This document shows positions 779 to 64,000 of a stretch of DNA of 64,000 nt, one piece after another (within the stretch, counting starts at the first letter, position 1; every line of letters begins with the position of its first letter). The notes below the pieces were generated by a model. That model was not told the origin of the DNA, did no database searches, and was given only the letters and a program-made list of their open reading frames with translations. The stretch is from NCBI GenBank assembly GCA_956465555.1, contig OY101116.1:3596001-3660000 (forward strand). Reading direction: 5' to 3'. A program made the translations under genes and the position numbers. This DNA is from Nitzschia sp. pyKryTriq1. Taxonomy: Eukaryota > Bacillariophyta > Bacillariophyceae > Bacillariales > Bacillariaceae.

Positions 779-1708
779 TAGGATGGTTTGATTTTAAAAA
801 TCTATTCGTAGCAGAAGCGGGAAATACTGATACTGATTATCCACCGTTAGAGTCGTTTTAGTACTTGTACAAGGCGAAACAACAGCGCAACATCTTCATC
901 TCTACTACTACTAGATCTAGCTAGTGTATCGTAAAGCTGCGAAAAAGTGCACTGTCTAACTTAGATACCACCATGACGGTCGAGAGCCATTAATCTCTCT
1001 TGCGAAGGAACGACATTGTAGCCACTCCAGATACTTGTACCGATAGATAAAGATGAGATGAATGACAGTCCAATGATTGACTCAATGGACTTTTTTCACC
1101 CGTACGGGATCATCAGTCATCCCAGGCCAGCGCTAGTTCGTACCGGTACTTCGTACTAGTCTGCACATGTACTGTACAGAGACGGTGGAACCTATGAGAA
1201 GTCCTGTGCTTGCATCCTTCGTCGAGCTCGCCAGCTTTGTTCAGCAAAAGATCGGGCTGCTCCCAGTAAGCAAGTAGAATTCTCTTCTCTAATTCTCTTC
1301 TCTACTACCGGTAGTAGGAGGTAGGAGGAGAGAGAGAGACTTTATTGCAGCGATGGAATGTCTGTCCGCATGGACGGCAAGAAAGAGTTTCTGTCCATAT
1401 GTACGACAGAAGCTCACATCTTGCACATCGCGCTCGCTCGCCCCGAAGATGTGAGGCTCTCGCGGGCGCGTGCTGCGTGCTGCTTTGCCAGGTTTCTGCT
1501 GCCTCCACCGACCAATAAGACAACACGCAAAACTCAACAAGGAGCAGTAGTGCAAGCAACGCGATGAGGGTGCTGGTGGTGTTGTGTGCTTTGTTCGCTC
1601 CGTTTACGATCGAATGACTGCATCTTCATTGCTCCAGTCTTCGAGCAGTCCACTTCTTTTATCCCCTTTCATTTATTCCATCCCTCCACTCTAGTCATTC
1701 AAAATAAG
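779..1708 (+). other. Intergenic region and 5' UTR of the CRNKL1 gene
   Basis: No gene is seen here. The stretch holds ACTACTACTAG-type repeats near 904-920, GGTACTTCGTACTAG-type palindromic fragments near 1143-1160, and a GA-rich run near 1318-1342. The last part before 1709 (C/T-rich, with TCATTCAAAATAAG before the ATG) is probably the 5' UTR of the next gene. Confidence 0.5.
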
Positions 1709-5878: not shown

Positions 5879-6641
5879 ATGGCTCACGCTTTACCGTAAG
5901 TGCTTTCAAAACTCGAATGTCCAGTCATCATTTGTTCTCTTGGGAACATTGTGAATGCATTGATCTCAAGTTTCTCCTGGTTTCATTGATGCCTTCAACA
6001 AAATTAGGTTAACAAAACTGGCAAGTCTCTTTGTCAAGACCCTTGCCAAGCCTCTCTCAAAACGCATCAAACATGAATTTTCGCGTTATAATTTCACGAA
6101 ACAAATGCTGATTGGCATTGGGCAAACATCTCACGCTGTTTCGTCGAGGATGCAAATTTGGAGCGCAGGATATCAAGTGCGATCGATTAAGCCATTAGAA
6201 GAAGAAAAGGCTCTCAAGGATGGGGCGGAATTTGTGGGAGAATCTTTTATTTTCTTAGTCAGTGGCACCTTGGTGGTTTGGGAATACAATCGATCTGCAG
6301 AAGCAACTCGCAGCAAGGAAGAAAAGAAGCAGGCAGAGGCCAAGGCGGAGCGAGCTGCCTTGCAAGCCAAGCTGATTGCGCTCGATGCTCGGCTCAAAGC
6401 GGTAGAAGATACTGTCAAACACACTTCCCAATCTATATTAAGACTTGGAGGCTCTTCGTATGTTGAACCAGCAGCAGCAAAACTCGTGAGTATTGAAGAT
6501 GATGACGAAAGCGTGGATGGCGACCCCTCTCCGAAAGAAGAAACACCAAAAGATGATGCGCCAATGGACAAAGAGCCTGCTGATATTCCCGCAACCAGCG
6601 GATCACCCCAGAATAATAAGCCTTGGTGGAAAATATGGTAG
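5879..6641 (+). CDS. OPA3: OPA3-like mitochondrial membrane protein
   Basis: Two exons, 5879..5895 and 6008..6641, give 216 residues. The first exon encodes only MAHALP; intron 5896-6007 has GTAAGT and an ATTAG acceptor. Splicing restores the OPA3 N-terminus: MAHALPLTKLASLFVKTLAK, then PLSKRIKHE, matching the family pattern FP..KL......V.KPLA..IK. The core follows (QIWSAGYQVRSIKPLEEEKALKDGAEFVGESFIFLVSGTL in pieces), ending in a hydrophobic segment near residues 82-96 and a coiled coil (EEKKQAEAKAERAALQAKL). OPA3 is a mitochondrial membrane protein affecting organelle morphology; human OPA3 causes optic atrophy. The last 70 residues are an acidic P/D/E/S-rich tail not found in human OPA3 (179 aa). 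The tiny first exon would be missed by ORF-based annotation. Confidence 0.88.
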
Positions 6642-6700
6642 TACCTAAAACTGATGGTGGACTTCTACTTCTACTAGAGCAAAGATTGCCTGTTGAAGAC

Positions 6701-8052
6701 TCAATTAGTCTTGGCCGTCTCCTTCTTGCGCGACTTGACTAGAAGCATAGCGATTCCCATAACGGAGAGAACGGCGAATCCCGCATACGTTGTGAAAGGA
6801 TCCGCACTTGCTGGTAGTCCTGGCTGATCTCGGATATGCGGTCGATATGGCTCCTGCACTTGTAGCAATTCTCGTTCTTGAACAACCGGTTCTTCCTCCT
6901 CCCTCATTCGTGCAAATTCCTCCTCGTCTGTTTTGTGATCTGCCTTGTACACGACCTCTCCTTCCTGTTCTACATTCAACCGTTCGACCTTGCAATGAAT
7001 AAATTTGTCCAACTCTGGAAAGTTGTCTTCAATGTACTCGGGGTGGCCGTGTATCTTGCCCTGGACTGGACCTTTCCCCCACTATAATGACAAACATAGA
7101 CAGAACACAGGTACATTTTAGTTAGTCCACGACTTTCCAACAGCAAACAGGCGGATCCACATGCGCAGCAGCGTCATTGCACTGCCGGCAGTACACAGAA
7201 ATCACAAAAATCTTACCGGCGGCATGTCACCATAAGAATAGAATTGCTCCGCATTTTCCATACCTTCAATGATCTCTCCAATGGGTGTCTCCTACAGACA
7301 TGGTGTATGAACGATGCGAGAATAAATCGTTGACATTTTTTACAGAAAATCATGAAGAGATGGAGTGAAAAGGATCAGACATCAGCCTCGCATCATCAGA
7401 CAACGACGACCCAGTGACGAACCAAGGTACCCCGCTATGCACCTCTTGAACGTACCCATTTTTGTGTCCCCAAGGAAGCCGACGATCCATAGGAGATAAA
7501 GAGCTGTGATGTTCGACTGTTATCGCCACTGCCTGAATACAAAAGTGCAAGTAAGTCATGTATATCGATGATGAGAGGAAGCACGAACGGCACAATTCTT
7601 CTTCAGACGGACTTCGTATCATACGCACCGGCATAGGAAATGATTCCAGGGTGAAATTTTATACCCTTGGGAGGATCGTCTTGGATTTGGGTACGTGCAA
7701 ACTTTTGTAATGCTTCATCCTTCGAATACGAAATTCCAAATTGCACCAGAAACTTGGGAACGACTCGATAGAAATGACTTCCATCAAAGAATTTACGCTC
7801 AAAAAGTTCCACAGCTCGATCGTATCCATTCGGCGACCATAACTATAAGGACAAAAAAGACAGAAACGTAGTTACATGTTAGCGAGTTCATGACTCTGCA
7901 ACAGCCAACAGACGGATCCACATGCGCAGCAGCGTCATTGCACTTCCGGCATTGCACAAAAATCACAAAACTCTTACCCTCTGCAGTTTCATGGTAATGG
8001 CACCTTTGGTCGTCTCACAGCGAACGATCGCTTCTTCATCTGGAGCAGTCAT
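6701..8052 (-). CDS. Tail-anchored cyclophilin-type peptidyl-prolyl isomerase
   Basis: Five exons on the minus strand: 8052..7978, 7842..7629, 7532..7456, 7291..7217 and 7081..6701 (273 aa). All junctions are GT-AG and preserve frame. The cyclophilin fold covers about residues 1-165: ITMKLQR, AVELFERKFFDGSHFYRVVP, FLVQFGI, SYAGSGDNSRTSQLFISYG, WETPIGEIIEGM and YGDMPPWGKGP. Active-site Arg (FYRVVP), Phe and Gln (FLVQ) are present, but the usual QGGDF is changed to VQFGI and the cyclosporin-binding Trp is not evident, so catalysis may be weak. After an E-rich linker (DEEEFARMREEEE) comes a single C-terminal TM helix (FAVLSVMGIAMLLV, about residues 246-261) and a basic tail, indicating tail anchoring in the ER or another endomembrane with the domain facing the cytosol. 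Introns 1 and 4 are related sequences, listed separately. Confidence 0.9.
7082..7216 (-). repeat. Intron 4 of the cyclophilin gene: copy of intron 1
   Basis: A 135-bp intron (donor GTAAGAT, acceptor CATTATAG on the minus strand). It aligns without gaps, end to end, with intron 1 of the same gene (7843-7977), also 135 bp. By hand about 109 of 135 positions match, including an uninterrupted 32-bp identity (7152-7183 here, 7913-7944 there). Flanking exon sequences are not similar, so only the intron is duplicated. Confidence 0.85.
7843..7977 (-). repeat. Intron 1 of the cyclophilin gene: copy of intron 4
   Basis: A 135-bp intron (donor GTAAGAG, acceptor CCTTATAG on the minus strand), the partner of 7082-7216. 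The best-matching part is the donor-proximal two thirds; the acceptor-proximal part is more diverged apart from the terminal TATAG. Both copies are phase 0. Copying of a complete intron from splice site to splice site is the signature of introner-like elements. Confidence 0.85.
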
Positions 8053-8506
8053 TGTGGCAGCTTGATGGGTAAACCAATAGATGAATTCTACTAGTAGTAG
8101 GAATGATGGCTGCGGACAAGCACCTCGAGGGCAACAGTGGTTACGAGTTTGCAGGTTGCAATGCCGGTCATTGTCGAGGGCAAAATATGCATATCGCGTA
8201 TTATCGTCTGGCGAGTAGAAATCTAGTAGAAAAGGGCCAAAGTGGTCCAAAATGGTTGGACTCGTCCGACCCGTTCAAAGAGGGCGTTGCCCCGCCGCTT
8301 GCGATCCTTCTATTACCGGCATTCTACTCGCTCGGTACCAGGTCTACTAGAGACCTCTCTACAGTAATATCGCAAAGCGGCGAAACTGGCTAGTGGAATG
8401 AAGTACAGTACGGGGATCGGGGATGATGATTCATCTATCGGCACAGACAATGTTCCTGCTTAGTAGACAATGCACACGCTTATTTTGAATTTGAACGCCC
8501 CAGAGT
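8053..8506 (-). other. Intergenic region between the cyclophilin and 2OG-like genes
   Basis: Nothing coding is seen. CTACTAGTAGTAG palindromic repeats occur at 8088-8100 and a related GTCTACTAGAGAC at 8341-8353. The part next to 8052 should hold the cyclophilin promoter. Confidence 0.4.
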
Positions 8507-33226: not shown

Positions 33227-34386
33227 GTTGTTGTTGTTGTTGTTTGTTATAATTTGCAATGAAATGGAGTGAGGGACTTTCGATTTTATGAGCCTTGATC
33301 GAAAGAAAAAATGCAAAAATAAAGAGGTGGAGGGAGAAACCCCTTCCACAAACCTATCGCCAGAGTTTCACGATCGCCGACATTGGCGATTGATCGAAAG
33401 GTTTCTCTCTGCAACCTTCACACCAAAACCTGAAAGTTGATAATAATGATGAGGAGGACGAGTTCACGATCGATGGAGATGGATCTTATGTAGAACAAAA
33501 CGGTTCCAATGAAAATGTGAGGCGTCTCGAACGCGTGCGTTGGATGACTGAAAAGAAAGGGCACGCCGGCGTGGTTGGATTTTGCGAGTTGGCGAGAGAC
33601 ACGCCGCGAGAGAGCGCGCGGTTGGCGCTTCGCCGAGATTTCGGTTGACGGACAGGCACGACGGTTTCAAATCCCGAATTTTCGCCCTGGGATTTCAGGA
33701 GAAGCAAAAATTCGGTGCATCTACGACTCAATGGAATAAATAATTGGACTATCTCGATTAGAAAGACTAGATCGACTACACCCCAACACACGCGAGCGGG
33801 TGGGCAAACAACCCCAACTGGATGGAGTGGGCGAGCAATGGCAATAACAAGTAACAACAAAAATAATAATCTAGCAACTCGCAGTGATGGCGACAATTAC
33901 TATTACTTGGTCGGATTGTCCGCTCGCTCGATCAGTACGGTATCCCTCGCCCGCCCAGCTAATTCATTTTTCTCGTTACAGTACGGAGTATTGCCTGAAG
34001 AATAGAGTAGTCGTATGAGTCATAGATGCACCGAATTTTTGCTTCTCCTAAAATCCCAGGGAAGCGCGAAACCGTCGTGAGGGCGCGGGAGGTTCATCGT
34101 TCATCGTTCATCGAGTCGTCGTCATTTTTAGTCGACTTTCCGAAGCAGTCAGACAAGTCGTATTTGCAAGTCGAGTTGTCTCGCTACTACAACTTCGCGA
34201 TCGCGACCATGGCGACGCGGTCGCGGCAATGACGAGTAAAATTGAAAATCCATCATCCATGATACTTTGCGGTCAATCTGCATCCCATTATTTGACCTAG
34301 CGGGCAGGTGCTGCAGTGTAGCAGTGATTAGACCCCTCTTCATCCACCAAAGGCTATCGATAACGAGACCACTGGTCATCATCATC
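33227..34386. other. Divergent intergenic region holding an inverted-repeat element
   Basis: About 1.16 kb between the start codons of the SAP-domain gene (-) and APC4 (+). It must hold both promoters. Its main feature is the inverted repeat listed separately. GCGCGCGGTTGGCG near 33614-33627 and GAGGGCGCGGGAGG near 34079-34092 are GC-rich flanks of the two arms. Two longer ORFs on the minus strand (33486-33896) are not supported. Confidence 0.5.
33657..34078. repeat. MITE-like element with about 60-bp inverted repeats
   Basis: The left arm (about 33657-33731) and the reverse complement of the right arm (about 34014-34078) agree almost base for base over CACGACGGTTTC at the outside and over about 45 bp running from CTGGGATTT through AGAAGCAAAAATTCGGTGCA to CTACGACTCA at the inside. 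The left arm has roughly 10 extra bases between the two blocks. The interior (about 280 bp) has no coding signal. This could be a miniature inverted-repeat transposable element or a foldback element. Target-site duplications were not obvious by eye. Confidence 0.7.
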
Positions 34387-63425: not shown

Positions 63426-64000
63426 ATAACTAAGGATTACTAGAGCTGCGTTGTTACTTTACTTTTACTTTACTTTTTCTTTAGCACTTCATGAGTATAC
63501 ATACAATGGATTTTGTGAAGCGGATGGAATATTTTCTGTTTTGGCATGAATTTTGTTGATCGCATTTTATTGCATTACCCCGCTCGGATGAGAAGTGATC
63601 GGATCGGTCACATTTTACCGAAGAAAGGGATGACAGACGGAAAAAGGACGAAAAGGGAGGAGAAGAACAAACAGACGCCGCAGACACGACAGACACTAAC
63701 CATTGGATATATCATAAAAAGTATTCGGATATGGAGAATCCTGAATGTTCGCTTATCCATTGGATATGCAAAAGACGCTACCGGTAGATGTGAGGCGAAG
63801 CCTGAAGCCTGGTCACTATTCAACTGGAGGCGAAGCTCTTCGTCGAGCGTTCGTTTTGTCGATTTTGGTTTCTTCCGTGGATTTTGAAGGAACATGCCAC
63901 ATCCACGACGGTACCTGGTACAAGTACTCTCTACAGTACTACCTGTAGTTACAGAGCAAGGATCTTCTATCTTCTTCCCATTCTTCATGGCAGCAGAGCG
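63426..64000. other. Window end, no supported gene
   Basis: Holds an ACTTTACTTTTACTTTACTTTT repeat near 63457-63480 in pieces, and overlapping ORFs on both strands (63546-63887 plus, 63608-63988 minus) without recognisable features. GGTACCTGGTACAAGTAC occurs at 63910-63927. Confidence 0.35.

Follow-up and report, generated by a model that had tools for sequence, protein, structure and literature searches.

The gene at positions 8052-6701 (minus strand) of the window, by which we mean the whole 64,000-nucleotide stretch of Nitzschia sp. pyKryTriq1 presented above, encodes a cyclophilin-type peptidyl-prolyl isomerase and contains two introns that resemble each other over their full length. Intron 4 is probably a newly gained spliceosomal intron that was copied whole from intron 1 of the same gene, by intragenic transposition via RNA. 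Since the gene lies on the minus strand, the copy at 7843-7977 is intron 1, the probable donor, and the copy at 7082-7216 is intron 4, the probable new copy. Both are 135 bp long, are in phase 0, and have the ends GTAAGA...TTATAG.

The initial annotation had reported two 135-bp introns at these coordinates with a gap-free match at 109 of 135 positions, and our recomputed alignment gave the same value from splice site to splice site. A gapped global alignment contained 115 identities, corresponding to a corrected distance of 0.22 substitutions per site. Its score was 92 and the highest score of 1000 shuffles was 5; the global alignment scores of introns 2 and 3 against introns 1 and 4 were below zero. 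When intron 4 with 100-bp flanks was used as the query for BLASTN inside the window, the other copy was retrieved at E = 9e-38. Beyond the pair just two 18-bp matches at E = 0.73 appeared; the initial annotation had likewise seen no third copy in the window. The longest identical run between the two introns was 32 bp (columns 34-65 of the alignment; 7152-7183 in intron 4 and 7913-7944 in intron 1, minus strand), again as described before. When the mismatches were placed at random 20000 times, a run of at least 32 bp arose in about 1.1% of the trials (permutation value about 0.011). This core may reflect constraint or later conversion, or it may have little meaning.

Both copies have the same orientation within the gene and lie 626 bp apart. 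The exons around them had been called unrelated, and indeed only 12 of 40 upstream and 8 of 40 downstream positions were identical. Directly at the borders, intron 1 is preceded by AGG and followed by TTA, and intron 4 is preceded by CCG and followed by TGG. One base is thus in common on each side, and microhomology extends no further. No target-site duplication of 3-9 bp was visible in the flanks, and no terminal inverted repeats were seen by eye in the alignment of the intron ends. A tandem genomic duplication would be recognized by a duplicated exon segment with AGGT sites surrounding or within the new intron; this signature was not present, as the flanking exons are unrelated, and exon duplication was ruled out as the origin for the same reason. 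The likeness is that of one intron copied from another of the same gene, splice site to splice site, as expected for intron transposition within a gene.

Each intron was used for DNA searches of the whole genome (40.65 Mb), and only the two copies were returned, also in a second search with E values up to 10. Four pattern searches allowing at most 3 mismatches hit the same two places each, and a reversed control hit none. The patterns covered the 5' end, the core, and columns 73-105; columns 60-72 and 106-135 were covered by the DNA searches only. As a positive control, the same DNA search was performed with a repeat at window positions 900-1120, for which 40 of 335 first-look candidates were scored, and it resulted in 51 matches with 70-100% identity. 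A family that had diverged as far as the control repeat should have been detected; the searches reach to about 70% identity, and weaker relics would lie beyond that reach. Nine other places in the genome have 26-41% protein identity to this cyclophilin. The genome DNA and pattern searches found no copy of the intron at any of them, and no paralogue carrying the same intron at the same place, as intron transfer would leave, was detected outside this gene. We also compared 264 kb with itself and obtained 46 similarities, the pair of introns 1 and 4 included. Matching splice-type dinucleotides at most 3 nt from both ends in both copies were present in 3 of the 46, namely the intron pair (the sole direct repeat), an inverted 46-bp pair, and a palindrome.

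These results bear on the two explanations that the initial annotation had offered. It had named an introner family and suggested a genome-wide BLASTN with the 135-bp sequence, in which a family of such copies would support introners. Only two copies were present in the 40.65 Mb, both in one gene, despite a control that recovered a repeat down to 70% identity, and the family was rejected. The other explanation, one local intron duplication, is supported, and its direction can also be read from the relatives: the position of intron 1 is shared and the position of intron 4 is mostly empty.

The gene structure of relatives was read from predicted proteins (P numbers below), mostly from metagenome contigs that run into introns, and not from DNA. 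At the position of intron 1, between LQR and LWSPNG, the translations of 8 of 62 proteins of one relative set pass from an intron into the exon (P0122, P0125, P0128, P0133, P0153, P0154, P0163, and P0170). The same intron was present in P0018 and P0027, which are among the best 120 of 293 protein matches. The most telling carriers are P0122 (86% identical) and P0128 (78%). Judged from these translations, intron 1 is old enough to be shared, yet not universal. The position of intron 4, between MPP and W, was continuous in all of the best 120 of 293 protein matches, some being transcripts. Five fragments (P0044, P0050, P0063, P0092, and P0188) start right at the acceptor of intron 3, between Q and ETPIG, and continue through MPP and W; given this start, they are unspliced sequence without intron 4. 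A script found that 92 of 106 C-terminal proteins or fragments run through the junction and 14 do not. The 14 are the window's own P0191, seven fragments beginning at MPPW, P0193, P0277, P0278, P0281, P0226, and P0228. As the seven fragments begin at MPPW, they also hold the junction. According to the predicted proteins, the donor position is older than the recipient position, though intron 1 is missing in many relatives.

We calculated a tree of exon 4-5 sequences from the window and 42 others, which we selected among 284 fetched proteins (43 rows in total). The window gene was placed in a clade of 20 rows with support of 96/98, in a bootstrap that had not settled; other fragments possibly belonging to this clade were left unplaced. 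The junction is uninterrupted in 17 of the 19 other rows of the clade; in the remaining two, an intron lies 5 nt upstream (P0193) or the reading is ambiguous (P0228). P0001 and P0002 are uninterrupted but may represent spliced sequence (short contig; gene model), which leaves 15 contig fragments counted as empty. Five of these visibly begin at an intron 3 acceptor, and the other ten (P0183-P0187, P0189, P0190, P0192, P0194, and P0196) start from an internal start codon and are presumed to be unspliced; P0194, counted among the 15, begins at MPPW. The nearest row to the window gene by path was P0044 (0.38), with the order inside the clade not settled. None of the relatives read had an intron at the exact position of intron 4, with the possible exception of P0226, which lies outside the clade; P0228 is ambiguous. 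P0128, which has intron 1, and P0187, which is in the clade and has no intron 4, have the same source and each lie on a contig of 6618 bp. Given equal source and size, this is probably one contig, and for the same reason the contigs of P0050 and P0166 (5149 bp each) would be one. No DNA of the relatives was found in viral contigs, and 14 distant prokaryotic loci from prokaryote genomes were not used. Intron 4 would most simply be a new copy of intron 1, and a single gain in the window lineage would be the simplest account because an older intron would need several losses.

Several points weigh against this account. Intron 1 is patchy: its site is read through in 46 of the 62 proteins mentioned above and 8 of the 62 start later, and it is also read through in 108 of the best 120 of 293 matches, some of which are transcripts or gene models. 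All intron positions in the relatives are deduced from predicted proteins, and splicing of introns 1 and 4 is a prediction. The identical 32-bp core hints at later conversion or constraint. The reverse-splicing step is inferred, and a single event would fit precise copying of DNA equally well. The main reason for caution is the presence of introns at neighbouring positions, the phases of which were deduced from translations. An intron 2 nt upstream of the intron 4 site (GDMP followed by RK..., donor GTAAG after C) is found in P0153, P0154, P0163, P0173, P0178, and P0179; P0277, P0278, and P0281 are matching 3' fragments, and P0129 and P0182 resemble them. P0170 and P0193 have an intron 5 nt upstream, between AT and G, as perhaps does P0171, which simply ends there. 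P0226 may have its intron exactly before the same W. Among these carriers, P0277, P0278, and P0281 are outside the close clade and P0193 is inside; the remaining ones were not placed in the tree. The neighbouring introns suggest either recurrent insertion at this site, as described for fungal elements (PMC4457414), or an old intron that slid; such an intron may also have been overwritten after sliding. Together with the site of intron 4 they make three intron positions in a span of about 5 nt, a possible hot spot of parallel gain or of sliding.

For the copying itself we propose the following course. Once excised, the RNA of intron 1 would have entered a transcript of its own gene by reverse splicing, with a pre-mRNA or a partly spliced form as the more likely target, in a formerly uninterrupted exon stretch between codons 147 and 148 (P147 and W148). 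The transcript carrying the intron would then have been reverse-transcribed, and the cDNA would have undergone local recombination with the gene. The gene has kept introns 2 and 3, which separate the two copies, and therefore the RNA would have been unspliced there or the recombination was local; their retention makes a complete recombination with a spliced cDNA unlikely. The copy would have carried its own splice signals and could thus have been spliced at once, leaving the protein unchanged, and the copies would since have drifted to about 81% identity. The route via RNA appears favoured by the exact borders, the sense orientation, the lack of exon or target-site duplication, and the retained introns 2 and 3. 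Introns 1 and 4 both contain an in-frame stop if retained, and the protein length across the intron 4 junction is the same as in the relatives. These stops and the protein continuity with the relatives suggest that both introns are spliced.

We weighed this route via RNA against copying at the DNA level, in which a double-strand break in the exon would have been repaired from intron 1 by template switching or segmental duplication, with the borders falling at the splice sites by chance. A distance of 626 bp within the same gene and in the same orientation is what local template switching gives, and a single event without an RNA step would be sufficient. However, the borders coincide exactly with both splice sites, flank identity ends after one base per side, and no exon bases were gained or lost, which makes this explanation unlikely, though it deserves consideration. 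Alternatively, gene conversion could have replaced the sequence of an old and unrelated intron 4 with that of intron 1, perhaps after the old intron had slid from a position 2 or 5 nt upstream. The introns at these two distances in relatives and the putative intron of P0226 at the same site are in line with this, and the 32-bp identical core is compatible with a later conversion. Conversion requires homology, however, and unrelated introns have none; furthermore, 17 of the 19 other close-clade rows, 15 of them contig fragments, have no intron at the junction. The initial annotation had stated that gene conversion would be indicated if there were no further genomic copies and if distant diatoms had both introns with the same similarity. 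The former was found and the latter was not seen, and we regard such a conversion as rather improbable.

That the two introns are the surviving members of an introner or introner-like family is very improbable. Whole-intron copies in sense orientation would fit, and introners are known in other algae (PMC3879977, PMC7789003), but a sensitive control notwithstanding there are two genomic copies in a single gene, and no target-site duplication or terminal inverted repeats are visible by eye. A site without intron in relatives, as is typical of introners, was found for only one of the two copies. Paired genes for intronic non-coding RNAs, for example snoRNAs, kept alike by their function could place the identical core under constraint, and the in-frame intron translation of P0125 weakly resembles introns 1 and 4. 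We compared back-translated intron pieces of the relatives with the window and with shuffles. The likeness of P0125 to intron 1 was equalled by 3-6 of 300 shuffles and its likeness to intron 4 by 8-23 of 300; in a second test the value was 2 of 200 for either intron. In the comparison of P0125 with the window, the stretches of introns 1 and 4 took 2nd and about 5th place in the list of peaks. P0122 was equalled by 2-11 of 300 shuffles against intron 4 and by 16-35 of 300 against intron 1; the corresponding values for P0128 were 20-22 and 75-79 of 300. The likeness of P0125 is, however, one of 32 comparisons, and a presumably unrelated piece of P0153 was equally good against intron 3 (2 of 200). 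In an Rfam search of 6600-8200 with a limit of E = 10, the single match (E = 1.9) lay outside the introns. Folding was no better than that of shuffles (z values of 0.01 and 0.47), and none of 29 predicted pairs showed covariation with both sides changed. A structured RNA or snoRNA was therefore rejected, and this explanation is hardly credible. Intron 1 of P0125 is 126 nt long and in-frame, and it may contain a conserved intronic element; a control pair scored equally.

The gene model comprises five exons that encode 273 residues. The protein matched Pfam PF00160 (E = 1.9e-16) and has a hydrophobic tail at its C-terminus, as judged by eye. Its best named protein matches are from Nitzschia, Cylindrotheca, and Pseudo-nitzschia, the latter two being Bacillariales diatoms by taxonomy, which supports the view of the initial annotation that the gene is from a diatom. 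Exon 1 (7978-8052, MTAPDEEAIV...KLQR) is based on the gene model, on PF00160, and on the continuity of the protein with P0001 and others; it is followed by intron 1, the position of which is common to P0122, P0128, P0125, and others. According to the gene model, exon 2 comprises 7629-7842 and exon 3 comprises 7456-7532. Between them lies intron 2 (7533-7628, 96 bp, phase 1), identified from the gene model and, like intron 3 (7292-7455, 164 bp, phase 0), unrelated to introns 1 and 4 in the alignment. The position of intron 3 is common to the near relatives P0044, P0050, P0063, P0092, and P0188. In the gene model, exon 4 (7217-7291, ETPIGE...GDMPP) precedes intron 4, and exon 5 with the stop codon (6701-7081, WGKGPVQ...KETAKTN) completes the gene; all these features are on the minus strand. 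The window also contains other repeated sequences. The stretch 900-1120 is a member of a dispersed repeat family. The 191 bp at 63589-63779 are 97% identical to G000:C2:3492402-3492592, which is 167 kb upstream on the same contig. The inverted 46-bp pair at 33685-33730 and 34016-34061 is 95.7% identical as reverse complement, and its two parts are 285 bp apart.

The closest precedent we found is that of the near-identical intron pairs of Oikopleura dioica, four among about 75,000 introns, each within one gene and ascribed to reverse splicing (PMC3879977). In both systems a single gene has two similar introns; the Oikopleura pairs are near-identical, whereas the diatom pair has 81% identity and a direction that can be read from relatives. 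In the description of intron transposition, reverse splicing inserts an intron into the mRNA from which it came or into a different one, and reverse transcription and recombination follow. By 2012, 14 unambiguous events from Mycosphaerella and Oikopleura had been tabulated, and the table gives no in vivo demonstration (PMC3443670). The diatom gene resembles these cases in that the gained intron is similar to an existing one, has ready-made splice sites, and occupies a formerly empty position; the route is inferred in the known cases and in the diatom gene alike. Introners and introner-like elements occur in Micromonas, Aureococcus, Amoebophrya, and fungi (PMC3879977, PMC7789003, PMC8469720, PMC9860276), and they share with the diatom pair the copying of whole introns in sense orientation into new positions. 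A survey of introners kept families of at least 4 introns, whose copy numbers in a genome ranged from 5 to more than 2000, and removed similar intron pairs with similar encoded proteins (PMC9860276). These copy numbers contrast with two copies in one diatom gene, and a same-gene pair would probably escape the count of that survey. Target-site duplications or terminal inverted repeats were not seen in the diatom pair, and some introner families are also described without them. Fungal introner-like elements were found within 15 nt of introns of other species (1, 8, and 3 nt), which was read as parallel gain (PMC4457414). The relatives of the diatom gene likewise have introns 2 and 5 nt away, although the elements in fungi belong to a multi-copy family. 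In Cryptococcus CNN00420, introns 3-5 are identical and intron 2 is near-identical (PMC2395259). That gene also has several copies of one intron, while the exons of the diatom gene are not repeated.

A diatom case of same-gene intron copying was not found in the literature searched, which covered few subscription papers. Intron duplication within one gene is also said to have been reported for Drosophila Xdh, and this report was not found on searching. Unique intron positions in Thalassiosira were reportedly described by Roy and Penny in 2007, a paper cited in PMC3488318. We rate the diatom pair as a further case of a known but very rare kind.

The origin of new spliceosomal introns is a long-standing problem, and even among the recently gained ones many do not match any proposed mechanism (PMC3443670). 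Pairs for which one can identify the donor, the copy, and the empty site are rare, and the diatom case adds a lineage that was already noted for many unique intron positions. We suggest tentatively that diatoms might still gain introns at a low rate by intragenic transposition through reverse splicing. This route would leave pairs of donor and daughter introns in the same gene, which introner surveys discard by design, and it might add to the reported high share of unique intron positions in diatoms.
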